Source: Paenibacillus sp. FSL W8-0186 (GTDB lineage: Bacteria > Bacillota > Bacilli > Paenibacillales > Paenibacillaceae). Taken from it: a DNA stretch of 64,000 nt. The position numbers and the translations under genes were made by a program. The notes beneath the pieces were generated by a model. That model was not told where the DNA came from. It saw only the letters and a list, made by a program, of their open reading frames with translations, and searched no databases. Numbering within the stretch: the stretch's first letter is position 1; each line of letters starts with the position of its first letter. The stretch is from assembly GCF_037969765.1 (NCBI RefSeq), contig NZ_CP150207.1, positions 2,156,001 to 2,220,000 of the forward strand. Direction: 5' to 3'. Positions 358 to 16,247 of this stretch are shown here, piece after piece.

Positions 358-1497
358 ATGTCTGTATATTTAATTCCAATAAAAATCGCATTTATTTTAT
401 TTAGTGCATTCAGCTTTTTTCTTATTATCCCTTGGTTAATTTATAGTTATAGAAAATATGGTTATTTAAGTCTTTGGGCTTCAATAGTGGCTTATTCCTT
501 TACTTTCTATATGTTATCGGCTTTATTTTTAGTTCTATTGCCTCTTCCGGTTACTCGAAATACATGTGCTTTGCAATCACCTGATACGGTGCATTATAAT
601 CTGGTCCCTTTTAATTTCATTAGGGATATTATTAATAGCGGTTCCGTTGTTTGGTCACAGCCATCCACCTATGTTAGATTACTAACGCAAAGTGCATTTT
701 TGCAGGCGGTATTCAATTTCCTATTGTTGCTGCCTCTAGGTGTTTATCTAAGGTATTTTTTCCAACAGAAACGATTTTGGAAGAGAGCACTTGGTTTTGG
801 ATTTGCTTTATCTCTTTTTTTTGAGACAACACAAATAACAGGTATTTATGGGATCTATAATTGCCCATATCGTATCTTTGATGTGGATGATCTTATATTA
901 AATAGTACTGGTGCTTTGTTTGGATTTGTCATTGCTCCTGTCCTGCTTGCTCTATTTCCATCTCGAAAGAGCCTTATTGCTAAGGGAGAAAAAATGCAAG
1001 AAAATTCTCTCGTACCTCCTTTGTCGCAATTGCTGGCTGTATTTATAGACTATCTATTGATAAAGATTAGTTGGAACCTTACAGTTGGACTTTTTACAAC
1101 AAGTGGATTCGCAGAATTTGTTTATAAAACGACTTGCTTTTTTATTCTGTTCTTTGTAGTTCCATTGATTTGGGAGGGAAAAACAATTGGAACAAATATA
1201 CTGCATTTTAAACTAATTCATGTTGATGGTGAAGCACCTCCGTGGCAGTCCGTGCTGAAAAGGTCCTTTGCGCTGTATTTACCTTTGGCAACATCATGGG
1301 CCCTAAATATATTTTCTGGTATTGAGTTAGATATAACTCTTAATCCCTATCACGTATGGATCACTATGATTATACTTGCGTTTCTCATCATGATGTGGGC
1401 CGTATTATTTATCCATATTGTATTCATCTTAATTAAAAGAGGGAGACGGAACTTTTACTTTGACTATGTAGCTGATTTAGTACCAAGGAAAAAATAA
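358..1497 (+). CDS. VanZ-like / RDD-domain membrane protein
   Basis: A 379-residue polytopic membrane protein. The first half (about residues 5-195) has the VanZ-like arrangement: hydrophobic helices, the NLVPFNFIRDII segment, and an acidic DVDDLILNSTGALFGF motif before the last helix. The second half (about 220-365) is an RDD domain with paired Arg/Asp-containing helices (FIDYLLIKISW, then GKTIGTNILHFKLI). VanZ-fold proteins are linked to low-level glycopeptide resistance or envelope homeostasis, and the RDD domain is of uncertain transport-related function. The ATG is preceded by an AAAGAGG ribosome site. It converges with the ABC exporter genes. Confidence 0.75.
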   Translation: MSVYLIPIKIAFILFSAFSFFLIIPWLIYSYRKYGYLSLWASIVAYSFTFYMLSALFLVLLPLPVTRNTCALQSPDTVHYNLVPFNFIRDIINSGSVVWSQPSTYVRLLTQSAFLQAVFNFLLLLPLGVYLRYFFQQKRFWKRALGFGFALSLFFETTQITGIYGIYNCPYRIFDVDDLILNSTGALFGFVIAPVLLALFPSRKSLIAKGEKMQENSLVPPLSQLLAVFIDYLLIKISWNLTVGLFTTSGFAEFVYKTTCFFILFFVVPLIWEGKTIGTNILHFKLIHVDGEAPPWQSVLKRSFALYLPLATSWALNIFSGIELDITLNPYHVWITMIILAFLIMMWAVLFIHIVFILIKRGRRNFYFDYVADLVPRKK

Positions 1498-1539: not shown

Positions 1540-3264
1540 TTAAACGTTCCACAATTCTTGAAATTCCTTACACCTACTTAAAAGATCTGTAAGGGATCCT
1601 ATGTCCACGATTTTTCCATCTTTCAATACAATGATTTGATCGGCGTATTGAAGGCATTCTCTCCTATTGGAGGAAATTAAGAAGGTTTTATTCGACAATT
1701 CCTTAATTCTTGCCCACATTTTTTGTTCTGTTACTACATCCACTGCACTTGAAATGTCATCCATAACATAAAGATCGGCATCTCGGGCAAACATACGCGC
1801 GAGAGCGGTACGTTGAATTTGTCCTCCCGAAAGCTTTACACCGTTAGGACCAATTTGAGTATCGAGCCCATTGTTGAATTCCGGTACATCCTCTTCGAGA
1901 ACAGCTGTATAAATTGCTCGGTCGATGACGTTGTCGCCATGCATGCCTAAAATTATATTCTCTTTAATGGTATCGCTAAACAGGATCGGTGTTTGCGGTG
2001 TGTATGAACTTTTTGGCGGCACAAAAAAGGAGTGCGGCGTCTTGATGATATCGCCATTCCATTTAATTTCTCCGCTTTGCATAGGTAAATGCCCAAGTAT
2101 GGTACGAAGTAATGTCGTCTTTCCTGACCCTACTTTGCCAGCGATAACGGTGATGCTACCTTTTGGCAACCTAAAACTAACATCGAAAATTCCTTTTTCG
2201 GATTCTTTAAACTGATATGACAATGAGTGAATTTCAAGAAGTAGAAGGGGATCGTGTTTATCAACCTTGACCTCACTAACATTCTCAGTTTTGAGCGATT
2301 GATGCTTTACCAATGCAGACTCGGTTTGTGGCGAGAAGAACTGTGCCATTCTTGAAAATGAGATGCCGGCTTGTCGATAGGAAGCTAGGAACACTCCGAA
2401 AAACTGAGTTGATTCTGTAATAAAAGCTAGATAATATACAAACAATGAAAAATCGCCGATCGAAATCGTTCCACTTTGAATGTCTCCGGCGGATACTATT
2501 AAGATTAGACCAGTACCAATGCTTACTGTATTTGATGCTAATAAATTTAAGAACGAAGAAAACATTTTGTCTTTAATCATGAAGCCTTTACGCTCATCGT
2601 TCAGTTTGGTGAATCTGTCAACTACCCGTTGTTCAGCTTGGAACGATTGGATAACCGGTGTCAATTCTGCGATTTCTCCAACAAAAGAGGCAAGTTCGGT
2701 AGAAGAGTTCCTGCTCGCATGGCGGTATTTTTTCAATTTGCGGTTCGACAAGTTGGATACGGTAATAATAAAAATTAAAGGTAAGAAGATTAACAAGGTG
2801 ATTTTACTGCTGATCGTAAAGAGAAGTATGAACGAAAACATTGAGAAAATCACTTTGCCTGTGACATCAAGAGTCCAACTAATGGAGGTTTCTATTTGAT
2901 CCGCATCTTCACGGAATTTAATGATGGTGTCGCCTACCGAGTTTTTCTCGGAATTGGATGTGATTAACTGCTCCAGCATATTCCTTCGCAATAAAGAACT
3001 CATGGAGAAGCGGTGATGGACATCTGTTAATCCTCCGCAAATCAGTAAAACAATTCTTGCGAGCGCTGTTGCCAGCAGGAGCGCAGTAAGCATCCAAACA
3101 TGTGAATTCAATGTCAATTCATTGGCTAACGTATCGAGCAGCTTACTTATGATTAGGCCTGGGATGATAGGTCCATAATGGATAAGAATCCATACGATTC
3201 CGTTTAATGTATATAACCAAGGGCGATAGCGGATCATTGTCCACATATATTGATAAGTCTTCAT
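1540..3264 (-). CDS. ABC exporter half-transporter, degenerate-site subunit
   Basis: A 574-residue type IV exporter half: six transmembrane helices (about residues 15-300) then an ATPase domain (about 335-574). It has Walker A GKVGSGKTT and a canonical LSGGQ signature. In the Walker B region the usual catalytic Glu is Asp (YVMDDISSA) and the H-loop His is Asn (SSNRRE). It would therefore contribute a non-hydrolysing site and needs a partner. The upstream gene overlaps it by four bases (ATGA) and supplies the consensus residues, so the pair should form a heterodimer. Likely exports, or confers self-resistance to, the product of the adjacent biosynthetic genes; substrate inferred only from context. 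Confidence 0.85.
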   Translation of the reverse strand: MKTYQYMWTMIRYRPWLYTLNGIVWILIHYGPIIPGLIISKLLDTLANELTLNSHVWMLTALLLATALARIVLLICGGLTDVHHRFSMSSLLRRNMLEQLITSNSEKNSVGDTIIKFREDADQIETSISWTLDVTGKVIFSMFSFILLFTISSKITLLIFLPLIFIITVSNLSNRKLKKYRHASRNSSTELASFVGEIAELTPVIQSFQAEQRVVDRFTKLNDERKGFMIKDKMFSSFLNLLASNTVSIGTGLILIVSAGDIQSGTISIGDFSLFVYYLAFITESTQFFGVFLASYRQAGISFSRMAQFFSPQTESALVKHQSLKTENVSEVKVDKHDPLLLLEIHSLSYQFKESEKGIFDVSFRLPKGSITVIAGKVGSGKTTLLRTILGHLPMQSGEIKWNGDIIKTPHSFFVPPKSSYTPQTPILFSDTIKENIILGMHGDNVIDRAIYTAVLEEDVPEFNNGLDTQIGPNGVKLSGGQIQRTALARMFARDADLYVMDDISSAVDVVTEQKMWARIKELSNKTFLISSNRRECLQYADQIIVLKDGKIVDIGSLTDLLSRCKEFQELWNV

Positions 3265-5009
3265 ATCAACACTTCCATTCCGCCGGTAATCAATAATTTG
3301 TGGTACTGTGAATGTATGTCTCTTGCCAGTGCATCGCGAGAACCAAACTCGACGATTTTGCCTCGTTCAACAATCATAATTTTGTCGGTTTTTTCGACCG
3401 TTGCTAAACGGTGTGTAATGATTATTGCTGTTCGATTATGTAAAAGCCTAGTAGTTGCGCAATGTATTAAAAATTCAGTAGCGGGATCTAGCTTTGACGA
3501 TGCTTCATCTAGAATCACAACCCTAGGATTGATCAAAAATACACGCATCAAGGAGATTAATTGCGCTTCGCCAGCCGAGACACCAATGCCATTATTCAAT
3601 AACGGAGTATCAAGGCCTTGGGGTAATGATTTATACCATTTCGTTAATGCTAATTCTTCAATTAACCGATGGATGCGGTCATCGGTTATGCTTGGATCAA
3701 ACACGGATAAATTATTGCGTAAAGTAGAACGGAACAACTTGACGTCTTGTGTAACTATCCCTACAGATTTTCTTAGTGATCGTAACGAAATATCACGAAG
3801 GTCAATACCGTCTATCTTCACACTGCCTTCGGTAGGGTCGTAGAATCGGAGCAGCAGTTTTGTTAACGTGGATTTACCGCTGCCAGTTCGCCCTAACAAA
3901 CCTAGTTTTGTATTTGGTTCTAAATAAAAATCGATTCCGTTTAAGATGATTTGATTATCTTCATAACGAAATATGACATTCTCGAATTCAACAGAAGCAC
4001 TAACCTCATGTTCAAGCTCTTTGTGACCAAATGTCATAGGCTGAATATCTAATATCTCTTTTACCCTGTGGATGCTTGCATCTGCCTTTTGCCATTCCTC
4101 AAATTGCAGTCGGATACTCTCAATTGGCTGTACAAGGAGATTCGTAAAATTAAAAATCATAAATAGCGTACCCATTGTAATTTGATTTGTGCTTAATAAG
4201 TAAGCGCCGATTATAAATGAGATCATATTACCGATTGAGAATAACAATAAAGAAGTAGACTGTATCAAGTATCTGCTTAATTTGACAGCAATGCTCGCCG
4301 ACAAAAGTTTATGGAGAAAACTATAAAACCGCTTCATTACAAACGGACTAGATCCATTCGAGCGAATATCCTCCAATCCGACAAAATACTCTGTAATAAA
4401 GCCGTAGAAATGCCCATAAGTAGCTCGTAACTTTTGAAAATAAGGAATTCCTACTTGTCTAGCCTTTGATAGCAAAAATAGAGCTGAAACTGTAAATATA
4501 GCAAGAAGAGTGCCGATTCTCCAATCCAAGAAGAACATGATGCCGTTAATACCAACGATTAAAAGAATATTTCCTAATAACTCAATAAATAAGTTCGAGA
4601 AAAAACCTTGTAAAACGTTAACATCTCCATCGATCCGTTCGATAATTTCGCCCGATGTATATTTTTTTTGATGAACCATACCAAGCTTTAAGTAATGTGA
4701 AGCCAATTTTGTACGTAGGGAATTGGTTGATCTCCACCCAAGCGTCTCCCCGACATATGTAATTAGAAGAGAAACAAGCTGTTGTGATAAAGCGACTCCT
4801 GTATAACCGACGGCAATGAGTATCAAATATTGATAGGGCTTTTGTGAATAAGCCCCGTCTATAAAGTCCCGAAGCAAATAAGGATTGTAGAGCTGTAGCC
4901 CGATGTTTATTAATACAACTATGAACAGCATGATATATTTTGCTAAAAGCGGCCGGAAAAATTGGATGAAAAAATCGCTGTATTTAATCGAGCCTTTACT
5001 CTTCAACAT
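3261..5009 (-). CDS. ABC exporter half-transporter, consensus-site subunit
   Basis: A 582-residue exporter half with an N-terminal six-helix domain and a C-terminal ATPase. Walker A is GRTGSGKSTL, Walker B ends VVILDEASS with the catalytic Glu, and the H-loop is THRLA. Its signature is degenerate (VSAGEAQ instead of LSGGQ), which matches the degenerate catalytic residues of its partner at 1540-3264: the two defects would meet at the same ATP site, as in TM287/288-type heterodimers. I chose the ATG at 5009 because an AGGAGGT ribosome site lies just upstream; a longer frame to 5063 only runs into the kinase gene. It overlaps that gene by 14 bp. Confidence 0.85.
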   Translation of the reverse strand: MLKSKGSIKYSDFFIQFFRPLLAKYIMLFIVVLINIGLQLYNPYLLRDFIDGAYSQKPYQYLILIAVGYTGVALSQQLVSLLITYVGETLGWRSTNSLRTKLASHYLKLGMVHQKKYTSGEIIERIDGDVNVLQGFFSNLFIELLGNILLIVGINGIMFFLDWRIGTLLAIFTVSALFLLSKARQVGIPYFQKLRATYGHFYGFITEYFVGLEDIRSNGSSPFVMKRFYSFLHKLLSASIAVKLSRYLIQSTSLLLFSIGNMISFIIGAYLLSTNQITMGTLFMIFNFTNLLVQPIESIRLQFEEWQKADASIHRVKEILDIQPMTFGHKELEHEVSASVEFENVIFRYEDNQIILNGIDFYLEPNTKLGLLGRTGSGKSTLTKLLLRFYDPTEGSVKIDGIDLRDISLRSLRKSVGIVTQDVKLFRSTLRNNLSVFDPSITDDRIHRLIEELALTKWYKSLPQGLDTPLLNNGIGVSAGEAQLISLMRVFLINPRVVILDEASSKLDPATEFLIHCATTRLLHNRTAIIITHRLATVEKTDKIMIVERGKIVEFGSRDALARDIHSQYHKLLITGGMEVLI

Positions 5010-5958
5010 AATCCACCTCCTTGTCCCAATGAAGTTCATTCCCGCGCCAGCTGCTAAAGGCACCGTAACTTGCCATTGTTGATATTAAGTCGGGGAGAAG
5101 TTTGATTTGTTTAACGAGAAAGTCAATATATAGATGGCTTTGAAGAGAACGATCATAAAACCATGACTCCGGTATTTCATCCAACCAATCTTTTATTTGA
5201 GAGGCAGTTAAGGAGCAAATATGATTGTAAACGCTCACAAAACTATGGTTGGAGGAATCAGAAACATCAATATGCTGATCAAATGCTCGAAATACTTCTC
5301 CTAATCCACACATTGCATAGCGTTTGCCGCTTGAAACCATTAATTTTCTGTAGAAAATAGTTTTATACTGCTCATTATCGCCGGCTAGTTTCATCGCATT
5401 GAGTTTTGAGCTCCCCTCCCATGTATATCCCCAGAAGCAATCGCCCTGATCAATAATTTGCAATAGGCGGTGTTCCCCTTGTTTGCTAACTATAAGGTTT
5501 TCGCCATTTCCAAACCGGTCGAAATTAGCGGTTAACAGGTCAAGCGCAACGATTTTCGGTATGTCGTCGGTATTATGAAGATCTGATAAGAACTGCATCC
5601 AAGATTGCTTGAGTCGGGTACCATCCCGTATGTTATCTTCAATATCCGGGATCCATTCGCTGGCAAAGTAGAGGCCACTGCGATAAGCCTCTTGATACTG
5701 AACTGGAAGTATGGATGAGTCCAACTTAGCTACGACTGCGGTCGGTACTTTGATGCCGAGATATTTGGCCAAGTGAAAAACTAAAATTTCTTGTATCATG
5801 ACAGCATTCCAATGCTCCCATAACTGTTTGGTTTGATTAAAAATATAAGGCGTCTTAATCACATACTTCATGTTATCATCGGCAACAACTGCGAGAGGTT
5901 TACTCTGTCCGCTGCCTAAATCATGTGAAAATTGGCGGACCGCAACATGTTTAAGCAT
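4996..5958 (-). CDS. HipA-like kinase-fold protein
   Basis: A 320-residue protein with HipA/PI3K-like kinase signatures. Candidate nucleotide-binding Lys is in YVIKTP (residue 35), the catalytic segment ANFDRFGNGEN has Asp147 and Asn154, and the metal-binding segment IIDQGD has Asp170. Bacterial relatives phosphorylate proteins (HipA on glutamyl-tRNA synthetase) or small molecules. No HipB-like antitoxin is adjacent. Instead it is the first gene of an operon with a heterodimeric ABC exporter, which suggests a role in product modification or self-protection rather than a toxin-antitoxin pair; this is inference. The ATG follows a perfect AGGAGGTT site at 5961-5968. Confidence 0.65.
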   Translation of the reverse strand: MLKHVAVRQFSHDLGSGQSKPLAVVADDNMKYVIKTPYIFNQTKQLWEHWNAVMIQEILVFHLAKYLGIKVPTAVVAKLDSSILPVQYQEAYRSGLYFASEWIPDIEDNIRDGTRLKQSWMQFLSDLHNTDDIPKIVALDLLTANFDRFGNGENLIVSKQGEHRLLQIIDQGDCFWGYTWEGSSKLNAMKLAGDNEQYKTIFYRKLMVSSGKRYAMCGLGEVFRAFDQHIDVSDSSNHSFVSVYNHICSLTASQIKDWLDEIPESWFYDRSLQSHLYIDFLVKQIKLLPDLISTMASYGAFSSWRGNELHWDKEVDYVEE

Positions 5959-5974
5959 ATAACCTCCTGAAAAA

Positions 5975-6032
5975 TTGTAAATTTACAAAACCTTAACAAT
6001 TCGTTGACAAAAGACAATGAGTATTGTAGCAT
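5975..6032. promoter_or_regulatory. Divergent overlapping promoters with palindrome
   Basis: For the plus strand, TTGACA (6004-6009) and TAGCAT (6027-6032) are 17 bp apart. For the minus strand, TTGTCA (6010-6005) and TGTAAA (5987-5982) are also 17 bp apart. The two -35 boxes overlap by five bases, so only one polymerase could bind at a time. The minus-strand -10 lies inside a perfect 14-bp palindrome, TTGTAAATTTACAA (5975-5988), a possible operator. Assigned by eye only. Confidence 0.45.
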
Positions 6033-6152
6033 GTAGTCGAACAGATTACCATATATAACTTATGTTGTATTTTTTTATTAAAAGGGTCTAAAGAAGGAAT
6101 TTCGTTAGAATGATGACTATGAAATCATTACTATTGTCAAAGGGGCCACGGA

Positions 6153-6929
6153 ATGATGATGGTTAGTGAACGCACATTATCGGAGGATACAAATAGGTAT
6201 AAAGAATACGATAATTACGCATGGTTTTGGAACAAATACTGGGGGCGAACGTCGGCAAGGCGGGTACTTCCAATAGTAAAAGAATTAGTTCTGGGAAAGC
6301 AGCCTCAGGGAATTCGCGTCTTAGATGTTTGTTGCGGATCGGGGCAGTTGGCGAAGATTTTGTCTAAAGACGGGTATCAGCTGTCTGGGATTGATGGCTC
6401 ATCCGATATGATTCAACTAGCGTCTCAAAATTGTACAGATGGAAACTTTGTCGTGGGTGACATCAGAGTCCCGTTCCCTTTTCAAGAAAAATTCCATGTA
6501 GCATGTTCATTCTACGATAGCTTAAATCATATTCTATGCCTGGAAGATCTTGCAAGCGCTTTCGAAAGCGTTTATGGGGTATTAGAAAATAACGGTGTGT
6601 TTATTTTCGACTTAAACATGGAAGATGGCTTTAAAAGCAGATGGAATAATCGTCTGAATCAAATTGTCCAACAGGATTATGTTTGCATAGAACACTTTAG
6701 ATATAACGGAGATAGAAGAATTGGAACTAACAATGTAACTTTATTCCTACTGCAGGATGAGTGGGTGAGGAAAGACGTCTGTATTGTAGAGAAGTGTTAT
6801 ACTCAATCAGAAATCATAGAAGAGCTTAGCAGAGTCGGATTTACAAACATAAACATGTTCGAATCGTCTGAAACGTTCAATTTGGTTGATGACCAAGGGC
6901 GATACTATTTTGTTTGTGAAAAGAAATAG
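6153..6929 (+). CDS. Class I SAM-dependent methyltransferase
   Basis: A 258-residue Rossmann-fold methyltransferase. Motif I is VLDVCCGSG (residues 56-64), followed by the acidic loop GIDGSSDMI and a motif IV-like segment (FHVACSFYDSLNHI). These soluble enzymes transfer methyl groups to O, N or C of small molecules. It is the first gene of a plus-strand operon that continues with a flavin monooxygenase and carrier-protein genes, so a tailoring step on the cluster product is likely. Three ATG codons stand in a row at 6153, 6156 and 6159 behind an AGGGG site, so the exact start is uncertain by two residues. Confidence 0.85.
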   Translation: MMMVSERTLSEDTNRYKEYDNYAWFWNKYWGRTSARRVLPIVKELVLGKQPQGIRVLDVCCGSGQLAKILSKDGYQLSGIDGSSDMIQLASQNCTDGNFVVGDIRVPFPFQEKFHVACSFYDSLNHILCLEDLASAFESVYGVLENNGVFIFDLNMEDGFKSRWNNRLNQIVQQDYVCIEHFRYNGDRRIGTNNVTLFLLQDEWVRKDVCIVEKCYTQSEIIEELSRVGFTNINMFESSETFNLVDDQGRYYFVCEKK

Positions 6930-6967
6930 TTCTAGCGATCGGTAAATAATATTATAGGGGGTCAAGC

Positions 6968-7984
6968 ATGGACTTAATGTACTACAGTGAATTGCCCGGT
7001 TTTTTGGAGAACGAAAACTCTTTACATAAGATAGACAGTATTTCCAAGTTGTCCGAAAAGTATCATTTTACCGGGACTTTGATATTCCATCATCACGGAT
7101 CGATGGATCCTTGGTTTTTGGCTTCTCGAGTATTACATACGACAACAAAACTCCTCCCGTTAGTTGCTACGCAGCCCTATTCTATTCCACCTTTCAGTTT
7201 AGTGAAAACGCTCTCGACAATCTCGAATCTACTTCATAGAAAAGTGAATTTAAACCTCATTACCGGTGTCAGTGAAATGGAACTGTCAAGTGTACATCAG
7301 GCGACGGATCCAACGATGAAATATGCAAGACTGGAGGAGTATATTCAAGTTTTAAAAGGGCTATTGCATTCTAAGGAGCCTCTTACCTTCGATGGCAGCT
7401 ATTATAAGTTTAATAAGCTAAGATTAGCTCCGTATATTCGACAAGAGCATATTCCAGAATTATTTGTGCCGGGTTCCTCGAAGGACAGTATCCGAATCGC
7501 ACAGGCGCATGGCGATACAGCTTTATTGAGACCAGCCCCAATACATACATTTAAGGAGGAGTATTGTAGTAGATTCATCACGGATTCCGTTAATTTAGGG
7601 ATAAGAATCTCGGTGATTAGCAGATCCAATTCAGCAGAGGCATGGGAAGCTGCTCGCCGTAAGTTTCCAGCTAATCGATCAGGAGTCGTAAAGGCTAAAA
7701 TAAGGAAAAATATGTTATCTCACAATACAAAGCTAATGGCAGAACTAGCTCTATCAGGTGAAGTTTACGACAACATCTATTGGATGGGGGCATATCTCAA
7801 TGGGTTAACGGAGGATCCCTTCCTCGTAGGGAGCTATGAAGAATTAGCAGCGTATTTGCAACAATATGTTGACTGCGGGGTAACAACGTTTCTCTTCGGT
7901 GATTTGAACACCGAAGAAGATTTTATTCATATCAATAAAACGTTGAAAATGCTTGAAGCACCACGAAAAGAGGCGATTAGTTGA
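6968..7984 (+). CDS. LLM-class flavin-dependent monooxygenase (SsuD/BtrO-like)
   Basis: A 338-residue TIM-barrel luciferase-like monooxygenase. Support comes from the LNLITGVSEMEL strand, the ARLEEYIQVLKGLL helix before the substrate loop, and PELFVPGSSKDSIRIAQAHGD, typical of alkanesulfonate-monooxygenase relatives. Such enzymes use reduced FMN from a separate reductase, which is not encoded nearby. In butirosin biosynthesis BtrO, of this family, hydroxylates an aminoacyl chain tethered to a carrier protein; the ACP gene two positions downstream makes the same role attractive here. Its stop overlaps the TTG start of the PHP gene by four bases, implying translational coupling. Confidence 0.8.
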   Translation: MDLMYYSELPGFLENENSLHKIDSISKLSEKYHFTGTLIFHHHGSMDPWFLASRVLHTTTKLLPLVATQPYSIPPFSLVKTLSTISNLLHRKVNLNLITGVSEMELSSVHQATDPTMKYARLEEYIQVLKGLLHSKEPLTFDGSYYKFNKLRLAPYIRQEHIPELFVPGSSKDSIRIAQAHGDTALLRPAPIHTFKEEYCSRFITDSVNLGIRISVISRSNSAEAWEAARRKFPANRSGVVKAKIRKNMLSHNTKLMAELALSGEVYDNIYWMGAYLNGLTEDPFLVGSYEELAAYLQQYVDCGVTTFLFGDLNTEEDFIHINKTLKMLEAPRKEAIS

Positions 7985-8817
7985 TTCGTAGGGATGGTCA
8001 TACGCACACCCACTTCTGCTTTCATGGTTCTGGTGAGCATGCAGAACGGTTTGTTCAACAGGCAGTTCAGAAGGGATTTAACCAGTACAGTTTCACAGAA
8101 CACTCCCCGTTGCCCGAGAAACTGGTGAAGTCATTGCCAAACGACCGTGATTATGTGAATGCCCTGGCAATGAAATATGGTGATATTGACAACTATTTGG
8201 AAATGTGCGAAGGGCTGCGAAATAAGTATAGCTCAACTATTGATTTAATGATTGGACTTGAGCTTGATTTCATACAAGGAATGGAATCATTTGCCCGAGA
8301 GTTATTGGATCAGTATGGTCATAGAATGCAGGATAGTATCCTGTCCGTACATTTTCTAATAGGAAAGAATGGTTGGAGATGTGTCGATTCAAACCCCATC
8401 GATTTTAAGGAGGGATTGATCGACTATTACGGGAGTGTCGAGAACGTATATCATGCGTACTTTGATGCAGTGGAAGAAAGTATTGATGCGGACTTAGGTC
8501 CTTACAAACCAAAACGAATCTCTCATCTTACCTTGGTAGAAAAATTCAAGAGAATATATCCGCTAAAAAATCAAGATGCGTGCCGGGACAGGATAGTAAA
8601 ATTGTTAAAAAAAATCAAAGCCAAAAATTACGAGCTGGATGTTAATGTAGCGGGTTTATACAAGCCTCATTGCGGGGACACGTATCCTTCCGAGTGGATT
8701 GTTGAAGAAGCATTAACACTAGGAATTCCATTAGTATACGGTTCAGATAGTCACAGTGTTGTAGATGTAGGCAGGTCATATGATCTATATGAAAAATTTA
8801 TAGGAGGGTTACATTAA
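7981..8817 (+). CDS. PHP-domain phosphatase, histidinol-phosphatase-like
   Basis: A 278-residue PHP-fold metal hydrolase. The N-terminal metal motif DGHTHTHFC (His7, 9, 11), TEHSPLP, the GLELDF strand, and C-terminal GSDSHSVVDVG match the HisK/HisJ histidinol-phosphate phosphatase family. No other his genes are near, so it is more likely recruited to dephosphorylate a pathway intermediate. Start is TTG at 7981, overlapping the previous stop; no ATG lies in frame before the conserved DGHTH motif, so a TTG start is required. Only two bases separate its stop from the ACP start. Confidence 0.75.
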   Translation: MIRRDGHTHTHFCFHGSGEHAERFVQQAVQKGFNQYSFTEHSPLPEKLVKSLPNDRDYVNALAMKYGDIDNYLEMCEGLRNKYSSTIDLMIGLELDFIQGMESFARELLDQYGHRMQDSILSVHFLIGKNGWRCVDSNPIDFKEGLIDYYGSVENVYHAYFDAVEESIDADLGPYKPKRISHLTLVEKFKRIYPLKNQDACRDRIVKLLKKIKAKNYELDVNVAGLYKPHCGDTYPSEWIVEEALTLGIPLVYGSDSHSVVDVGRSYDLYEKFIGGLH

Positions 8818-8819
8818 CG

Positions 8820-9089
8820 ATGAATCATGTACAAGATATTGAGAGCCAAGTGAAGGCGATTTTATTCAACCTTTTCAGCAACAGCAACCCGGATGATATA
8901 ACTAATCAAACCGATCTTTATGATATTGGTTTGGATTCGTTAAATGCGATTCAACTTATTGTGCAATTAGAAGATGCTTTTGGTATATCAATTGATGACG
9001 ATGAACTGTTGTACGAAAATTTCAACACCATACCTAAAATTGTTGACATAGTAAAAAGCAAACTCGTAATAGAAAACAACGCGATCTAG
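8820..9089 (+). CDS. Stand-alone acyl carrier protein
   Basis: An 89-residue, strongly acidic protein with the carrier motif YDIGLDSLNAIQLI. Ser40 of DSL is the expected phosphopantetheine attachment site. Length and the DAFGISIDDDEL helix fit a discrete ACP/PCP of the BtrI/VinL kind rather than primary fatty-acid ACP, since it sits between a phosphatase and an adenylating ligase. It would hold the activated amino acid during decarboxylation, hydroxylation and transfer. The ribosome site GGAGGG lies within the end of the preceding gene. A phosphopantetheinyl transferase is not encoded in the window. Confidence 0.9.
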   Translation: MNHVQDIESQVKAILFNLFSNSNPDDITNQTDLYDIGLDSLNAIQLIVQLEDAFGISIDDDELLYENFNTIPKIVDIVKSKLVIENNAI

Positions 9090-9125
9090 GCAATCTATGA
9101 AAAGAGTAATGGGGGATCACGTTAT

Positions 9126-10607
9126 ATGATCAAATTTGTGCATGATATTCTGGAACGGTCTAGTCGACAGCATCCTACAAAATGTGCGCTTCAAGCGGGT
9201 TCAAATTATTATACTTATCAGGACATAAATTCCGAAGTCATTCGCTTTGAAACTTACTTGCGTAATCAAGGAGTTACAAAGGGTGATCGAATTATCATTT
9301 TGCTCCCTAATAGTTTTCTATCGGTTGTTTCCATATTCTCGTCATCTAGGTTAGGGGCGGTTTTCGTTCATCTCAATGAAGAAATTGTCACTCAGAACTT
9401 AAAGCATATTATCGAAGATTGCGAACCGAAAGTGATCGTTACGAATACAAAAAATAAAGCAAAGCACTCCCTTCCGTGGCATCGATTCATCGTAGTTGAA
9501 GAAGAGTTATATGATTGCACTGTACCATCGAATCAAATAAGCTCCGAAGTCACAACTCATATCGAAGAGGGGGACTTGGTTTGCCTAATTTACACATCGG
9601 GAAGTACAGGTAAGCCTAAGGCAGTCATGTCATCGCATGCCAATGTAACCTTTGCCGCTAATGCGATTCAGAATTGCCTTCATGTGAAAGAACAAGACAT
9701 CATTGGGCTATTTTTGCCTTTTTCCTTCGATTATGGAATGTACCAGATTTTCCTGACGTTCCAAGTGGGAGCCAAGCTTGTGTTATTTCCAATAGAAACT
9801 GCCGGTTTGAAGATGATTAAATCGATTCATGAATTTGGTATTACGGGCTTGCCTATCGTTCCATCTATGGTCCAATCTATATCGGCTCAATTCAATAGGG
9901 AAAACCGGCCGGTTAACAGCTTGAGGTTCATTACAAGCACCGGCGAGAAGCTCAAGAGAGCAAATATACATCAATTGCTTACCATGTTTCCCCAGTTACT
10001 CTTATATTCCATGTACGGTCTTACAGAATGCAAGAGAGTATCGATATTGCCATCCGAAGAGATTATTGAAAAAATCGATTCCATCGGAAAACCTCTGCCC
10101 GGAACCGAGTGCATGATTATTAATAGGGATGGGGAGAAACTGCCTCCAAACGAAATTGGTGAATTAGTCGTTAAGGGACCGCATGTGATGAAAGGCTATT
10201 GGAACAATAGTAATAAAAATACAAAAATTAACTTTGGCACATGGAACGATGAAAATGTCTTGTATACAGGTGATATGTGTAGTATAGATGAACACGGTTA
10301 CCTCTATTTCCATGGTAGAGAGGATGATATTTTCAAAAAGAACGGTTATCGGATCAGTTCAATTGACGTCGAGACAGCGGCAATGGAAATTCCGAATGTC
10401 GTCCAAGCCGCTTTAGTTGTAGCTGAAGAAGTCACTTGTTTATTCGTTGTAACCAATCTTTCTGAGAATGATCTCCGTAAAGAGCTAAGCGAACGAATTG
10501 ATAAATATGCGATGCCTAACAAAATTAATATCGTGCCTTCATTACCTTTAACATCACACAGCAAGGTAGATAAGAAGAAACTTAAAACCTTCTTTAGCGA
10601 AGTCTAG
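9126..10607 (+). CDS. AMP-forming acyl/aminoacyl-ACP ligase (adenylation domain)
   Basis: A 493-residue ANL-superfamily enzyme. The P-loop motif is LIYTSGSTGKPKA, the A5-like motif YGLTE, the hinge TGDMCSIDEHGYLYFHGRED, and the C-terminal catalytic Lys lies in SHSKVDKKKL. There is no fused carrier or condensation domain, so it should adenylate a carboxylic or amino acid and load it onto the ACP encoded 37 bp upstream. In butirosin this step is done by an ATP-grasp ligase (BtrJ); in macrolactam starter pathways (VinN type) by an ANL enzyme, so this cluster resembles the latter here. Substrate not predictable by eye. Confidence 0.85.
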   Translation: MIKFVHDILERSSRQHPTKCALQAGSNYYTYQDINSEVIRFETYLRNQGVTKGDRIIILLPNSFLSVVSIFSSSRLGAVFVHLNEEIVTQNLKHIIEDCEPKVIVTNTKNKAKHSLPWHRFIVVEEELYDCTVPSNQISSEVTTHIEEGDLVCLIYTSGSTGKPKAVMSSHANVTFAANAIQNCLHVKEQDIIGLFLPFSFDYGMYQIFLTFQVGAKLVLFPIETAGLKMIKSIHEFGITGLPIVPSMVQSISAQFNRENRPVNSLRFITSTGEKLKRANIHQLLTMFPQLLLYSMYGLTECKRVSILPSEEIIEKIDSIGKPLPGTECMIINRDGEKLPPNEIGELVVKGPHVMKGYWNNSNKNTKINFGTWNDENVLYTGDMCSIDEHGYLYFHGREDDIFKKNGYRISSIDVETAAMEIPNVVQAALVVAEEVTCLFVVTNLSENDLRKELSERIDKYAMPNKINIVPSLPLTSHSKVDKKKLKTFFSEV

Positions 10608-10648
10608 AGTCAAGATGTCAAGGTCATGATGCTAGAAGGAGCGTAATT

Positions 10649-11884
10649 ATGGATTTACAACACTTGGTTAGTAAGTACGGTAGTCCGTTATATACATACG
10701 ATTTGGCTGAATTGAAGTCGGCCTTTAAGAGATTATTCAATTCGTTACCCGACGGTTCCATATTATTTTATTCATTAAAAGCAAATCCAAATCCTTATAT
10801 AGTCAAAGAATTAGTAAAGCAGGGTTGCCGTTGTGAGGTCTCTTCAATAGCAGAGTTAAGAGTAGCCTTGCAAGCAGGAGGTATAGCGGAACAAATATTA
10901 TATACCGGGCCGGCCAAAACGAACAATGAAATGGAAGAAGCACTCAAACTTGGCGTAATTAAGTATTCATGTGAATCGACGAATGAACTGAACAAACTTT
11001 CACGTTTGGCTGATAAACACCGGAAGAAGGTTCAAGTCATCTTACGTGTGAACCCTAATCATAAATATCTTCGCTCTAGTTTGTCTATGACCGGTGTAGC
11101 GTCTCAGTTCGGCATTGATGAAAACAAAGTCGCGGAAATACCTCTTGAGTTTATCTCTTCTCCCTATATGGATATTATTGGGTTCCATGTGTTTAATGGC
11201 ACCAACTCGAATGACGTTAACAGCATGATCTCGTCCTTCACATACTCCATACAGATGGCTAAACGATTATCGGAACAACTAGGAATCAGTCTTAAGTTTT
11301 TGGACCTTGGCGGGGGATTTGGGCATCCGTACGCTAAAAAAGGGAATTCCGCAGACTTTTCTTCTATTAAGACAGAGATTAGTGCTGTTCTCGATCTGGA
11401 ACTTGCCGATTGGAGGCAGCAATTACCGGAAATCGCTTTCGAGTCTGGAAGAAATTTGGTTGCGGCGTGTGGCCAATATGTGTGCACAGTTGAAGAAATT
11501 AAGGAGAGTAAGGGTGAAAAATTTATTATCCTTGACGGTGGAATTAACCACTTAGGCGGGATGTCAGGTTTGGGAAGAATGCAAAAGTTTGATATGGATT
11601 ATATTTGCCAGAATGATCATGCTTCTACTGACACGATTTCCGCAGCCATGGTAGGTCCCTTGTGTACCCCATTAGACTTGCTGAGAAGAAGCCAAGAAAC
11701 TCAAAGCCTATGCGTTCAAGACATTATTGTCATTCCTAACGTTGGCGCTTACGGATTGACGGCTAGTTTAATGGGTTTTTTAAGTAGAGAAACTCCGGTT
11801 GAGGTCATTTATGAGGATCATACTGTTTGTAATGCGACTCAAATTATTCTGAATCGACAGACCATCGACAATAAAAAGGGGTGA
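10649..11884 (+). CDS. PLP-dependent decarboxylase, DapDC/BtrK-like
   Basis: A 411-residue fold-type III decarboxylase. The PLP Lys is in YSLKANPNP (Lys44). The phosphate-binding LDLGGGFGHPY, the FESGRNLVAACG segment, LDGGINHLGG, and the active-site GPLCTPLDLL (with the catalytic Cys) all match the diaminopimelate/ornithine decarboxylase superfamily. The GPLCTPLD form is found in enzymes acting on carrier-linked substrates rather than in LysA. No lysine pathway genes are adjacent. BtrK and VinO of this family decarboxylate ACP-bound glutamate or 3-methylaspartate, and gene order (ACP, ligase, decarboxylase) supports the same use here. Confidence 0.85.
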   Translation: MDLQHLVSKYGSPLYTYDLAELKSAFKRLFNSLPDGSILFYSLKANPNPYIVKELVKQGCRCEVSSIAELRVALQAGGIAEQILYTGPAKTNNEMEEALKLGVIKYSCESTNELNKLSRLADKHRKKVQVILRVNPNHKYLRSSLSMTGVASQFGIDENKVAEIPLEFISSPYMDIIGFHVFNGTNSNDVNSMISSFTYSIQMAKRLSEQLGISLKFLDLGGGFGHPYAKKGNSADFSSIKTEISAVLDLELADWRQQLPEIAFESGRNLVAACGQYVCTVEEIKESKGEKFIILDGGINHLGGMSGLGRMQKFDMDYICQNDHASTDTISAAMVGPLCTPLDLLRRSQETQSLCVQDIIVIPNVGAYGLTASLMGFLSRETPVEVIYEDHTVCNATQIILNRQTIDNKKG

Positions 11885-12927
11885 AGGCAACTTTGGATTC
11901 AGTAAAGTTACCTATTTGCATGCCGACGGTTAGAGGCTACCTTAATCATGCCTATCAGCTATCCATTCTAGAACATATAGAAGAAGCAAAAGTATGGATT
12001 TACATGAACTATATCCAATTAGTATCTGAGATCGGCAATAGCCAGTTTCCAGTTACCTATTATTTACCTGATTATATAGGTTACAACTGGAGTATATTAA
12101 CCCCTTGGTTTGATTACCAAGTTATTACTAGAGATTTCGTAGTTGAGCACAATTTGGATTTTCATAAACTTATTAAGAATGCTTTTAGTACGAAGCAATA
12201 TGTATTTTTATATGTAAATAATAAATATATACCCAATACACCTGCAGCAATAAGTCAGACAGACAACAATCACCATATTTTACTGCATGGATATGATGCA
12301 GCTACTGAAGAAGTATATTTTCAAGGCTACGATTCGAGGCGGCAGTTTACAGAAAGGGTAATCCATATTGATCAGCTGAAGATAGCGTATTTTAACAATA
12401 AATATGACTATGAACGGTATGAGAATCGGATGTTTCTGCTGAAAGTGCGAGAGGACGAAGGGTTTAAACTGGATTTGGACATCAGCCATATTATTGATCA
12501 ACTGATTTCGTTCAGAGATTCTAAAAGAGTGATCCATAATGTTTTTGATTACCATTCCGACTTTAAGTATCGTTACGGCCTAAACGTCTACGATAGTCTG
12601 CTTGAAAATCTTAGGCAGTTTATAAACGGGAATACGGAACAATTAAGGACAAAATTAACAATACCATTGCATGTTATCATGGAGCATAAGCATTTGATGG
12701 TCAAACGATTGAGATTTATTGAAAAGTGTTACCCGGATATCAATCTCAAAGAGTCTATAGACGATATGATGTTGTTGAAAACAACGTTCGAGAAGCTAAG
12801 AAATCTAACACAGAAATTTGAGGTAACCGGTAATAAAGAAATCATTCATAGAATGGTTTGCACGATCGAAGAGACAGGAGAAAAAGAGTATAGCATGTTA
12901 ACTAAGTTAATTCATAGTTTATCATAA
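11881..12927 (+). CDS. BtrH/C39-like protein, putative acyltransferase
   Basis: A 348-residue protein. The first 170 residues look like the papain-type BtrH N-terminal / C39-like domain: a Cys near the start (Cys13) and a HHILLHGYD motif (131-139) followed by a VYFQGYDS strand. The rest is helical. Relatives are frequent beside Paenibacillus and Bacillus natural-product genes. BtrH itself moves the finished side chain from the ACP onto the aminoglycoside, so a transfer or release role is the best guess. The catalytic Cys is not firmly assigned. Start is GTG overlapping the decarboxylase stop. It is the last gene before a strong terminator. Confidence 0.55.
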   Translation: MKATLDSVKLPICMPTVRGYLNHAYQLSILEHIEEAKVWIYMNYIQLVSEIGNSQFPVTYYLPDYIGYNWSILTPWFDYQVITRDFVVEHNLDFHKLIKNAFSTKQYVFLYVNNKYIPNTPAAISQTDNNHHILLHGYDAATEEVYFQGYDSRRQFTERVIHIDQLKIAYFNNKYDYERYENRMFLLKVREDEGFKLDLDISHIIDQLISFRDSKRVIHNVFDYHSDFKYRYGLNVYDSLLENLRQFINGNTEQLRTKLTIPLHVIMEHKHLMVKRLRFIEKCYPDINLKESIDDMMLLKTTFEKLRNLTQKFEVTGNKEIIHRMVCTIEETGEKEYSMLTKLIHSLS

Positions 12928-13067
12928 TGATAATCTAGAGGAGTGTTCTTAGGGATATTGACGAAGAACAAATGAACACTGTGTTAATTAGTGGTGCTAT
13001 GCCGATTGAGTATCGGTAAATGTCGTCGATAGTGCTCTCGGAAATATGGACTTTCTCTTTTATGGTT

Positions 13068-13107
13068 AACGGTCAGGGAGCATTCAATGCATCTGACCGT
13101 TTTTTTG
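13068..13107 (+). terminator. Rho-independent terminator of biosynthetic operon
   Basis: A perfect 9-bp stem (AACGGTCAG 13068-13076 with CTGACCGTT 13093-13101), a 16-base loop, then a run of eight T (13100-13107). It closes the plus-strand operon 6153-12927. The 140 bp before it hold no gene; an imperfect inverted repeat (GTGTTC...GAACAC) lies near 12943-12980. Confidence 0.8.
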
Positions 13108-13120
13108 GTTGAAAAATGCT

Positions 13121-13606
13121 CTAATCCTGTTTACGTTCATGATCTAGTTCATGCTGAACAACTTTCTCATGAATCTTAGACTCCAATACCTCTAAAACTT
13201 CGTCATCAAGTTTCTGGTGAGGCTGGGGATGGAACCAGTGAACCTCTCCTTTATGAACAAACCCTTTGTATTCATTTCCCTGCATCTGCAAAGAAAATTG
13301 CTTGCGCTCATGAGGGGTATCTTCAAATAAAGGTTTTATTTTTTCAAAATCTTGAATATCATTCGAAACTCCATGATGTCTTATTAATGAGTATATGGCA
13401 GATTCAATTCGCTTTACTCTACTTTCATCCATCGTTTGCTTGGGGTGTGGGTTAAACCAGATAATCTCATCGCCATGAAAATGTCCCTTGAATTCTTCGC
13501 CATCCACTTTAAAAGTGAATTCAAGCAGCTCATGTGCATGATTCTCAAACATCGCTTCAACTTGGAAATCCTCAAGTTCTGGCAATGGGTTCATATCTTC
13601 AGTCAA
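13121..13606 (-). CDS. Small acidic protein with two tandem repeats
   Basis: A 161-residue hydrophilic protein of unrecognised function. It contains an internal duplication: about residues 28-75 (GEEFKGHFHGDEIIWFNPHP) and 100-150 (NEYKGFVHKGEVHWFHPQPH) share the pattern G-x-[EY]-[FY]-K-G-x-x-H-x-[GD]-E-[IV]-x-W-F-x-P-x-P, followed by a short helix. It weakly recalls small single-unit Bacillales proteins of the YheE type, which I cannot confirm. No signal peptide or membrane segment. It appears monocistronic, facing the biosynthetic operon terminator. Confidence 0.6.
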   Translation of the reverse strand: MTEDMNPLPELEDFQVEAMFENHAHELLEFTFKVDGEEFKGHFHGDEIIWFNPHPKQTMDESRVKRIESAIYSLIRHHGVSNDIQDFEKIKPLFEDTPHERKQFSLQMQGNEYKGFVHKGEVHWFHPQPHQKLDDEVLEVLESKIHEKVVQHELDHERKQD

Positions 13607-13734
13607 ATTCTTCGTCTCCCTTCAAGAAAGTTTAACGGTTTGTTGCCTATGATCCTGAGGACTTATCGGTCTGCGAAAAAAGGCTGTCACCCTGATTATT
13701 TACCAATTAGGGCGCAAATATTCTGATAGAGGTC

Positions 13735-13769
13735 GACAGCCCGGTGATGGAGGCATCAACCGGGCTGTC
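13735..13769. repeat. Perfect inverted repeat, possible terminator
   Basis: GACAGCCCGGT (13735-13745) pairs with ACCGGGCTGTC (13759-13769) around a 13-base loop just beyond the bacilliredoxin stop. It is GC-rich and placed like a terminator for that minus-strand gene, but no T-run follows on either strand. A further GGCTGTC at 13682-13688 could pair with the same arm. Confidence 0.5.
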
Positions 13770-13779
13770 TGATTTACTA

Positions 13780-14118
13780 TTAGTCCAATACTGCGGTCAT
13801 ATGCGCCTTCGTGACCGACCAGTGGGAGGTGGTCCAGTATTTGGCTTTATCCTTGATAAATATAATTTGGGGCGACTCATGCTTAACATTCAAATCCTCG
13901 GCAATTTGGTTTGACACCGGACGGGATTCGATAACCTTCACTAGCGTATAATCCAAATCTGGATTGGGCGCATCCTGCAAATATTGCTCATATTCATGAA
14001 GCGCATTGGAGCTAACAGGACAAGTTGTGCTATGTTTTAAAATCACCTGTCCGCGCTCTGTTGATTTAGCCAACATTTCATTCCACTCTTCAAGTGTCGT
14101 TATTTCTCTCCAGTTCAT
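13780..14118 (-). CDS. brxC: Monothiol bacilliredoxin YtxJ/BrxC
   Basis: A 112-residue thioredoxin-fold protein with the motif KHSTTCPVSSNAL, the single-Cys TCPVS/I signature of YtxJ (BrxC). This family reduces or senses mixed disulfides with bacillithiol, placing the host among bacillithiol-producing Firmicutes. The C-terminal ESPQIIFIKDKAKYWTTSHWSVT segment with cis-Pro is as expected. Full length, monocistronic, starting at ATG 14118. Confidence 0.9.
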   Translation of the reverse strand: MNWREITTLEEWNEMLAKSTERGQVILKHSTTCPVSSNALHEYEQYLQDAPNPDLDYTLVKVIESRPVSNQIAEDLNVKHESPQIIFIKDKAKYWTTSHWSVTKAHMTAVLD

Positions 14119-14268
14119 ACAAGTACACTCTCCTCGGTAGCCGTATTTTTAAGCATAATTATTCTTCGAATGATTGAATTTTAACATGATCGCGCCTGTA
14201 GTCAAGTTAGAGACCACACTTCGGAGGGATTACTCCTTTTGTCGTTTCTGGCAAACACGGAGGTTTAT

Positions 14269-15050
14269 ATGAAAGTAGTCATTCTCGCGGGAGGGTTCGG
14301 AACTCGCATAAGCGAAGAATCGCATTTACGTCCTAAGCCGATGATAGAGATCGGCGATGCACCGATTTTGTGGCATATTATGAAGATTTACTCTCATTAC
14401 GGCTTCAACGAATTCATCATTTGTTGCGGATACAAGGGGTATATGATTAAAGAATACTTCGCCAACTATTATTTACACCGCAGCGATATGACATTTGATT
14501 TTACTGACGAGAACAAGATGATTGTACACGCGAATGTCGCGGAGCCGTGGAAAGTCACCGTCGTGGATACGGGATTGCATACACAGACCGGCGGACGTAT
14601 TAAGCGTATCGCGCCCTATGTTGGCAATGAGCGGTTTATGATGACCTACGGCGACGGAGTTAGTGACATTGATTTATCAAACTGGTACAAACACACGAAA
14701 AGTCAGGTAAGACCGTCACATTATCGGCGATTCAACCAGGCGGGCGGTTTGGCATTCTGAGCATCAACGACCGAGACGGGACAATTACTGGCTTTCACGA
14801 AAAAGTGCAGGAGGACGGTGTTTGGATAAACGCAGGGTTCATGGTGATGGAACCTGAAGTCTTTGATTATATCGATGGAGATTCAACGATTTTTGAGCGC
14901 AGCCCGCTTGAGCGCTTGAGCGCAAATGGCAAGCTCGGTGTATATAAGCATAATAAATTCTGGGCCTGCATGGATACGGCGCGGGATAAAAGCGCGCTCG
15001 AAGCTGATTGGGCAAACGGCAATGCGAAGTGGAAAGTGTGGGAGGAATAA
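14269..15050 (+). pseudogene. rfbF: Glucose-1-phosphate cytidylyltransferase, frameshifted
   Basis: The first part reads as an RfbF nucleotidyltransferase: MKVVILAGGFGTRISEES at the start, then RPKPMIEIGDAPILWHIMK and MMTYGDGVSDID. Reading then leaves frame in an A-run at 14698-14701; restoring one base continues as KSGKTVTLSAIQPGGRFGIL and runs through INAGFMVMEPEVFDYI to 15050. The repaired protein would be about 260 residues, normal for CDP-glucose synthesis enzymes (about 257). Start at 14269 fits a GGAGG site at 14258-14262. No CDP-sugar partner genes are near. A one-base sequencing error in a homopolymer is an alternative. Confidence 0.8.
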
Positions 15051-15102
15051 TATCCTATTGATTGCATCTATTTTTGAACCTTGACAAGAACCCCTTCCAA
15101 TA

Positions 15103-15147
15103 AAACAAGTTATAGAGCGAACAGTTTAGTTCGTCTATAACTTGTTT
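15103..15147. terminator. Long inverted repeat between convergent genes
   Basis: AAACAAGTTATA (15103-15114) pairs with TATAACTTGTTT (15136-15147), and an inner CGAAC/GTTCG stem extends it. It lies between the rfbF-like pseudogene and the convergent SDR gene and could end transcription from both sides; the A- and T-rich ends serve as weak U-tracts. Confidence 0.5.
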
Positions 15148-15230
15148 CCGGGAAAAGGCTGGAATCGAATTACGCCAAAACAAATAGGGACGGATTCACG
15201 ATAACATTGTTCCTGTTTTCTAATTCCTAT

Positions 15231-15992
15231 TTATAACAAGATATTTGTTGCCCCACCATCAACAACAAATTCTGCTCCTGTTGAGAAGGAGGAGTCATCA
15301 GATGCAAGGAATAGTACAAGTTGTGCTACTTCCTTCGGATTTCCCATTCTTCCTAATGGATATGCGGCATCTAATTCCTCTTTAGAAGCGTGTGTGACTT
15401 CTGACGCGTATTCTGCCATACCTGTTGTGATGTAACCAGGATGAATGGAGTTAATGCGAATTCCTCTTGATGCATATTCCGCAGCTGCATCTTTCGTCAT
15501 AACTCGTACAGCTCCTTTACTTGCGCCGTAAAGCAGATGACCAGGAGCTCCCATTAGACCGGCAATGGAGGAAGCGTTAATAACAGAGCCTTTATTCTGC
15601 TTCTCCATTACTGGAAGAACGTGTTTCAATCCAAGGAATACACCGGTGACATTAATCCCCATGAGTTTATTCCATGTATCCAGCTCAATTTCAGGAATCG
15701 GCTTGATAATATAAATGCCTGCATTGTTAAACAGAACATCAATTTTACCGAATTTTTCTGTTGATTGGGACACGACATTTTTCCAGTCCCCCTCGTTGCT
15801 AACATCATGTTTAATGAAGAGTGCATCTTCGTTAATCGCCTTTATTTCCTGCAAGGCCTTCTCGCCTTCATTTTCGTTGACATCTGTAATGACTACTTTT
15901 GCTCCCTCTTTTGCAAACAGTAATGCCGTCTGTCTCCCAATCCCAGCAGCGCCGCCTGTAATGATTGCAACTTTATCAACTAATTTTTCCAT
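15231..15992 (-). CDS. SDR-family oxidoreductase
   Basis: A 253-residue classical short-chain dehydrogenase. The cofactor motif is TGGAAGIGR, then NNAGIY, the catalytic Ser in NASSIAG, YGASK for Tyr/Lys, and HPGYITTGM after it; the Asp after the second strand (ITDVNE) favours NAD. The end (GAEFVVDGGAT) is typical of glucose 1-dehydrogenase or 3-oxoacyl-ACP reductase relatives, and substrate is not predictable. I chose ATG 15992 because ACCTCCC on the plus strand at 15999-16005 gives a GGGAGGT ribosome site; an in-frame extension to 16046 has none. Confidence 0.85.
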   Translation of the reverse strand: MEKLVDKVAIITGGAAGIGRQTALLFAKEGAKVVITDVNENEGEKALQEIKAINEDALFIKHDVSNEGDWKNVVSQSTEKFGKIDVLFNNAGIYIIKPIPEIELDTWNKLMGINVTGVFLGLKHVLPVMEKQNKGSVINASSIAGLMGAPGHLLYGASKGAVRVMTKDAAAEYASRGIRINSIHPGYITTGMAEYASEVTHASKEELDAAYPLGRMGNPKEVAQLVLFLASDDSSFSTGAEFVVDGGATNILL

Positions 15993-16247
15993 ACTTAGAC
16001 CTCCCAGTGAAATCCTGATGATTGTTATTTTCTTATCTTGCTTCATACGAACAAGAACAATACTGATAAAAAAATATTCGTATCAATTAAGGAGGATTCC
16101 ATCATTAAATAAACCAACTTTTGTTAACTGATCCCTATGGGTAAACACAGTTATAAAAAAGATAAATTTAAGGCCACGGAGTAATCCGTGGCCAGAGGTA
16201 AGCAAATACTTATTATCCATATAATCAAAGATACATATCATACCCGT

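Follow-up and report, generated by a model that had tools for sequence, protein, structure and literature searches.

Within a 64-kb window of the Paenibacillus sp. FSL W8-0186 genome (the whole stretch analysed, positions 2,156,001-2,220,000 of a 5.66 Mb chromosome), a seven-gene operon on an accessory island may encode a non-modular carrier-protein pathway. In this pathway aspartate (Asp) would be converted to beta-alanine bound to an acyl carrier protein (ACP), hydroxylated and passed on to an acceptor. We put this reading at roughly even odds (about 0.5). The operon (6153-12927) encodes, in order, a methyltransferase, a luciferase-like monooxygenase (LLM), a HisJ-type PHP phosphatase, a stand-alone ACP, an ANL ligase, a pyridoxal phosphate (PLP)-dependent decarboxylase and a last protein of 348 residues. 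It is divergent from an operon for a HipA_2-like kinase and two ABC half-transporters, the genes of which overlap. The open reading frames (ORFs) named in an initial annotation of this DNA are all in place, and Pfam or NCBIfam models back the families given there for the ACP, ligase, LLM, methyltransferase, PHP protein and decarboxylase. The same annotation described one overlapping operon. The seven genes are indeed tightly packed, but by their ORF coordinates only the LLM/PHP and decarboxylase/last-protein junctions overlap (by 4 bp each), the others being separated by gaps of 2-41 bp.

We suspect that the pathway runs as follows. The VinN-type ligase would very probably adenylate the beta-carboxyl of L-Asp and load the ACP, and the PLP decarboxylase would, with like probability, strip the alpha-carboxyl from the bound aspartyl group to give beta-alanyl-ACP. 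The LLM, of the BtrO family, would probably place a hydroxyl group on the carbon adjoining the thioester, which would yield bound isoserine (3-amino-2-hydroxypropanoyl). More tentatively, the last protein, papain-like in its modelled fold and lacking the catalytic Cys, may assist a direct attack on the thioester by an amine or alcohol acceptor, for which His131 could act as base. Product tailoring or acceptor supply could fall to the methyltransferase and the HisJ-type phosphatase, and the divergent kinase-exporter operon could serve product export and perhaps self-protection. It is a tentative proposal that the product is an isoserine conjugate made by a composite carrier route, with macrolactam-type loading and decarboxylation of Asp, a butirosin-type hydroxylase and papain-fold transfer that forms no covalent acyl-enzyme, and that the operon is one of a broad, little described class of beta-alanyl-ACP/papain-fold pathways. 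What is new here is the gene combination and the Cys-less protein, and not a new kind of chemistry. A literature search by title or opening of the abstract, which most subscription papers fall outside, returned no paper on this gene combination. For an orphan cluster, the predicted unit is corrected from C4 (4-amino-2-hydroxybutyrate, AHBA) to C3, and the prediction is concrete and cheaply testable.

The ligase is an AMP-binding (ANL) enzyme by Pfam, and its best match among PDB sequences is 3wvn (306 bits; next molecule 257), which is the structure of VinN (PMC11253843). In VinN, D230 is assigned to the amino group and S299 and R331 to the alpha-carboxyl (PMC7756342). Aligned to VinN D230, S299 and K330-R331, the operon ligase has D, T and K-R. 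Related loci share this signature. Among the best 80 of 397 loci from a decarboxylase profile search, all but L053, L088 and L098 have a ligase, and the best-matching ligases of the other 77 keep D230 and R331 throughout (77/77), with Thr (76) or Ser (1) at the S299 position. The ligase gene adjoins that of the decarboxylase in 58 of the 80 loci, and 53 have a small ACP no more than 3 kb away. In the bolagladin pathway, BolO was proposed to load Asp on BolC, where the BtrK-like BolN would then decarboxylate it, and beta-alanine did not rescue a bolN deletion (PMC7756342). VinN uses 3-methyl-Asp and FlvN uses Asp (PMC11284099). A supply of 3-methyl-Asp via glutamate mutase is unlikely here because the glutamate mutase E subunit has no match in the genome, a weakly backed negative, since none of 14 control genomes passed the cut-off either. 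The ligase signature and the linked decarboxylase together argue strongly that L-Asp is loaded through its beta-carboxyl. They make aspartyl-ACP to beta-alanyl-ACP, as proposed for BolO/BolC/BolN, the best prediction for the module, rather than gamma-aminobutyrate (GABA) or AHBA. The earlier proposal that an amino acid is loaded on the stand-alone ACP and decarboxylated there is supported, and of the two precedents named with it VinN/VinL/VinO is better than butirosin.

The decarboxylase belongs to the Orn/DAP/Arg decarboxylase family (Pfam and NCBIfam) and carries the GPLCTPLD motif noted initially, which is invariant in 15 aligned decarboxylases. It does not group with free diaminopimelate decarboxylases. 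Its best match among PDB sequences, BtrK, scores 224 bits and the next molecule 143, and the enzyme falls below the cut-offs of both the LysA equivalog model (232 of 298 bits) and TIGR03099 (286 of 478). The genome has a separate LysA, which scores 512 bits with the LysA model and is 27% identical to the operon enzyme. A tree of 42 rows places LysA and the BtrK orthologue from a butirosin-type locus (L156, described below) outside the other 40 with support 94/90; both are long branches, and their exact placement is unsure. A second LysA was considered for the operon enzyme and is ruled out by the LysA cut-off, the low identity to the LysA of the genome and the tree position. The closest relatives of the decarboxylase are P0001 from Paenibacillus sp. 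YSY-4.3 (91% identity), P0002 (61%) and a Cohnella protein (58%), and at E <= 1e-85 the enzyme is found in 1 of 40 genus, 6 of 394 family and 5 of 392 order genomes, the genome itself counted each time.

The LLM has 24 relatives at E <= 1e-30, and at 1e-40 there are seven matches among 394 family genomes, its own included. Loci were fetched from five of the six other family genomes (L155-L159), the relative in G343, which has an internal stop, being left out. One of them, L156 (G413:C1:5529000-5548900), encodes at 9258-17131 a GGACT protein, a BtrH_N protein, an ACP, an ATP-grasp protein, a BtrK orthologue (571 bits), an LLM and a PIG-L protein. This set, from a different genus of the family, apparently amounts to a butirosin-type BtrG/H/I/J/K/O cassette, the nearby PIG-L protein being a deacetylase. 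The L156 LLM, which we take as BtrO by its context (BtrO itself was outside the comparison), is 36% identical to the operon LLM, and in the LLM tree the two share a group of 30 rows that excludes the LLMs of L043 and L053. The comparison with BtrO made initially thus holds, and judged by identity and tree the operon LLM does belong with BtrO. Enzymes of this group may often work on carrier-bound acyl groups. The grouping with BtrO would make bound isoserine the natural next intermediate, and the LLM is predicted to be an alpha-hydroxylase of the ACP-bound beta-amino acyl group.

The last protein was initially called BtrH/C39-like, and of this only the fold finds backing, from a low-confidence structure model (mean predicted local distance difference test score, pLDDT, of 69.5; residues 13-76 under 50). 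It has no NCBIfam match at 1e-3, no Pfam match above cut-off (the best is Intein_splicing at 15.5 bits, cut-off 35.8) and none to BtrH_N even at E 1, and PDB sequences give nothing below E 0.09; its family profile finds nothing in PDB sequences at E 1, and a direct search of genome contigs with the protein returned no relative. The best full-length fold matches of the model are chains of AziU3/U2, CcbD and CtaG, with Foldseek E values of 7e-9 to 4e-6 from this low-confidence model and identities of 6-13%; we take these to be proteins of azinomycin, celesticetin and closthioamide, respectively. The papain-like fold is therefore a low-confidence assignment, and a role as transferase or condensing enzyme is proposed tentatively. 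The family is tied to carrier loci: 17 of 20 family loci of ~17 kb have an ACP or ANL gene, against none of 17 controls taken ~300 kb away in the same genomes. An ACP is present in 13 of the 20 and an ANL ligase or A domain in seven, with neither in L166, L172 and L177. These 20 were picked from 32 family loci for their long contigs; three come from the genome itself, some are orthologous pairs and so not independent, and three are without a matching control. At L159 (G110), a 33% relative of the last protein occurs with a 30% LLM relative, an ACP and a class-II-synthetase-like protein. ORFs of 1124-1309 residues near Cys-less family members (L160 2968, L161 2923, L178 3136 and L162 10579) match the same profile weakly (~1e-12 to 1e-14). 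The one at L160 is PKS-like by reading, and these matches may reflect a domain or an artefact. A carrier-linked, papain-fold-like family in which the catalytic Cys is largely lost offers an opening for finding out how enzymes of this kind function in its absence.

Several observations weigh against the proposed pathway. The specificity of the ligase hangs on few positions, and FlvN, BolO and VinO are themselves outside the alignments. Hydroxylation is assigned from LLM family membership alone, and no flavin reductase is seen among the operon genes. Among the five LLM loci only L156 has a decarboxylase match. By reading of their ORFs, the 44% LLM relative in L155 adjoins one resembling a polyketide synthase (PKS) at the contig end, the L157 LLM adjoins sugar-degradation-like ORFs, and those of L158 and L159 lie near ACP and distant ligase-like ORFs. 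LLM matches occur in just 4 of the 80 decarboxylase loci, which may be chance, and LLM enrichment near the cassette is not used as evidence. For the last protein, helical bundles top the structural re-alignment of a weak model, and no sequence kinship with BtrH is detectable. In the alignment register used, the nucleophile column holds Gly19, with His131 and Asp151 kept. Across the 35-row family alignment (without L002, L003 and L010, for which no ORF was recovered, and L028, over the length limit), this column is Cys in 5 rows and Ser in 6. Residue 13 is a Cys, which could be an alternative nucleophile; that column is Cys in 3 of 35 rows and Ser in 7.

The LLM contexts bear on an alternative in which beta-alanyl-ACP is made and the LLM acts elsewhere, on another substrate or by oxidizing N or S of the acceptor, so that no isoserine forms and the product is a beta-alanyl conjugate. 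In loci with no decarboxylase, relatives of the LLM do adjoin a PKS-like ORF, ORFs of sugar-degradation type or other ACP genes, but ~60% relatives of the LLM and of the decarboxylase are found on contigs of equal size (15,414 bases, metagenomic). That P0002 and P0128, or P0001 and P0127, are contig-mates is judged from equal contig sizes only. We regard this alternative as unlikely, if still one to be reckoned with.

Papain-like proteins also accompany related modules. A profile search finds them in 40 of the 80 ligase-decarboxylase loci; no control was run, up to four iterations leave drift possible, and the seeds came from five of the 40 positive loci. In 43 aligned proteins from 33 loci, Cys and His are kept in all (43/43), with Asp in 41 and Glu in two. 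Many of the loci (L041-L120) carry one or two such proteins, often near 5-9 kb or 13-15 kb. One L118 member matches neither BtrH_N nor DUF6005 in Pfam. In L118 an acyl-CoA dehydrogenase follows, which would suit a route to dehydro-beta-alanine like that of bolagladin. These counts suggest that the ligase-decarboxylase module of macrolactams and bolagladin is often joined with papain-like enzymes.

The PHP protein, specifically of the HisJ type, raises the possibility that the acceptor is histidinol or a similar amino alcohol, in which case the product would be histidinol that bears a beta-alanyl or isoserinyl group and is perhaps methylated, a carrier-made relative of carnosine and anserine. 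It scores 317 bits with the HisJ equivalog model and 250 bits with the solved HisJ 3dcp, compared with best matches of just 138-155 bits in the 38 other genomes of the genus searched, and the genome itself (G000) retains two lower-scoring homologues (145 and ~103 bits). Against this, HisJ types with high scores are frequent in the order's other families, members of this phosphatase family may have shifted to different phosphate esters, and nothing else suggests histidine chemistry. We consider a histidinol acceptor doubtful. The methyltransferase has no NCBIfam model above its cut-off.

We give similarly little credence to a self-protection cycle in which the HipA-like kinase would phosphorylate the product to an inactive export form and the PHP enzyme would remove the phosphate. 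Such a cycle would fit the overlap of the kinase and exporter genes, with the PHP gene in the divergent operon; yet the PHP protein, which begins with its metal motif, has no export signal by reading and would act in the cytoplasm, and the kinase matches a defence-candidate family weakly. The kinase is rare (3 of 394 family genomes, the genome itself included), and its relatives in G225 and G212 adjoin another conserved protein (L146 9377-11226, L147 9544-11390), presumably DUF3037-like, with no cassette seen there. The kinase and DUF3037-like pair of L146 and L147 is possibly a separate stress or defence unit.

The initial annotation ascribed to the operon the logic of the butirosin side chain. 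Its ACP, decarboxylase and BtrO-type LLM stand, but the VinN-type ligase predicts a C3 unit. A butirosin-type C4 route, in which loaded glutamate would become GABA-ACP by decarboxylation and AHBA by hydroxylation before BtrH moved it onto an amino sugar from elsewhere, is very improbable despite BtrK being the nearest solved decarboxylase and the LLM grouping with BtrO: the operon lacks the ATP-grasp ligase and gamma-glutamyl cyclotransferase that L156 has, the decarboxylase lies outside the BtrK branch, the transferase has no Cys at the expected place, and, as noted initially, no aminoglycoside gene occurs among 40 window proteins scanned with Pfam (a subset of the ORFs, with hits judged by reading; the rest of the genome was unsearched). 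As the principal reading, the C4 side chain is set aside in view of the ligase signature, the missing BtrJ and BtrG and the missing Cys.

The operons lie on an accessory island of ~14.6 kb that is missing from G098, a genome labelled as the same species (Table 1). On the left, collinearity with G098 (93.7-95.4% identity) extends to the left junction, ~1.6 kb left of the window. The match resumes at 13068 with 64 bases at 80%, followed by the brxC region from 13772 at 89%, and 13131-13772 is likewise unmatched. In G098 only 5 bases separate the two flanks; the site there immediately follows an nrdJ-like gene (so named by reading) and precedes a terminator hairpin, which also follows the island. 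The 300-base stretches at the two island ends share no 12-mers that would indicate a target duplication. The left end of the island (L134 14973-16255; -1028 to 254 in window numbering) holds paired small multidrug-type transporters and a TetR-like regulator, named by reading.

Table 1. Features of the accessory island, in window coordinates
Feature	Position	Strand	Basis
VanZ-like/RDD membrane protein	358..1497	+	Pfam VanZ and RDD; within the segment missing from G098
ABC exporter half-transporter B	1540..3264	-	Pfam ABC_membrane and ABC_tran
ABC exporter half-transporter A	3261..5063	-	Pfam ABC_membrane and ABC_tran; gene overlaps kinase gene
HipA_2-like kinase, first gene of divergent exporter operon	4996..5958	-	Pfam HipA_2 34 bits, cut-off 27
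S-adenosylmethionine (SAM)-dependent methyltransferase, first operon gene	6153..6929	+	Pfam Methyltransf_25/11
BtrO-family flavin (luciferase-like) monooxygenase, predicted hydroxylase	6968..7984	+	Pfam Bac_luciferase; LLM tree group
HisJ-type PHP phosphatase	7981..8817	+	NF005996 317 bits, cut-off 133
Stand-alone ACP, DSL attachment motif	8820..9089	+	Pfam PP-binding 52 bits; motif read in sequence
VinN-type beta-amino-acid ligase, predicted for L-Asp	9126..10607	+	3wvn (VinN) 306 bits; signature residues
Predicted PLP-dependent aminoacyl-ACP decarboxylase	10649..11884	+	BtrK 224 bits among PDB sequences; groups apart from LysA
Putative papain-fold-like (BtrH/CtaG-like) protein without catalytic Cys	11881..12927	+	Model fold matches; conservation columns; ACP-locus linkage
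Right island junction	13021..13110		G098 homology resumes at 13068, at terminator hairpin

Elsewhere in the window, the 20 proteins scanned between 29020 and 63630 include a catabolic block with PGA_cap proteins, carboxylesterases, MmgE/PrpD, beta-oxidation enzymes, oligopeptide-type transporters and HGD-D dehydratase subunits. An 80-base element at 17986-18065, which recurs in related genomes as numerous partial copies of 75-94% identity, is likely a dispersed repeat. An Rfam scan of the 64-kb window gave no matches, and promoter and terminator scans gave values near the shuffled mean.

Compared with known systems, the HisJ-type enzyme resembles histidinol phosphatase, with a family score far above the cut-off and 250 bits to 3dcp, and differs in its setting, a biosynthetic operon on an accessory island, additional to the homologues typical of the genus. 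For CtaG, a role in transferring the peptidyl group to a carrier loaded with beta-alanine was proposed (PMC6772006). PDB titles name CtaG C11A, H128A and D144N and CcbD C19S variants, which point to an active-site Cys, whereas the island protein has Gly in that column.

With the butirosin cassette, as seen in L156, the operon has in common an ACP, an acyl-ACP decarboxylase of the same superfamily, a BtrO-family monooxygenase and a putative papain-fold-like protein. The ligase is of the ATP-grasp type (BtrJ) in L156 and of the ANL type in the island operon, and the gamma-glutamyl cyclotransferase (BtrG) of L156 is not among the operon ORFs (the rest of the genome was unsearched). The island decarboxylase matches BtrK at 224 bits, compared with 571 for that of L156, and lies on a separate tree branch, the L156 branch being long. 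BtrH has the BtrH_N profile and a catalytic Cys, the island protein neither, and the predicted chain length differs.

The likeness is closer to bolagladin BolO/BolC/BolN, vicenistatin VinN/VinL/VinO and fluvirucin FlvN. Common to these and the island are a VinN-type ligase, alike in the residues that bind the carboxyl and amino groups (with Thr for S299 here), the stand-alone ACP and the adjacent PLP decarboxylase, which in those systems was proposed or shown to act on the thioester (PMC7756342, PMC11284099), VinO itself being outside our alignments. Those modules feed a nonribosomal peptide synthetase or a PKS, neither of which is seen among the island ORFs. The VinM-type second ligase and VinK acyltransferase of the macrolactam starter pathway are likewise not seen there (the rest of the genome was unsearched). 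In their stead, the island carries a monooxygenase of the BtrO type and the putatively papain-like last protein without its Cys.

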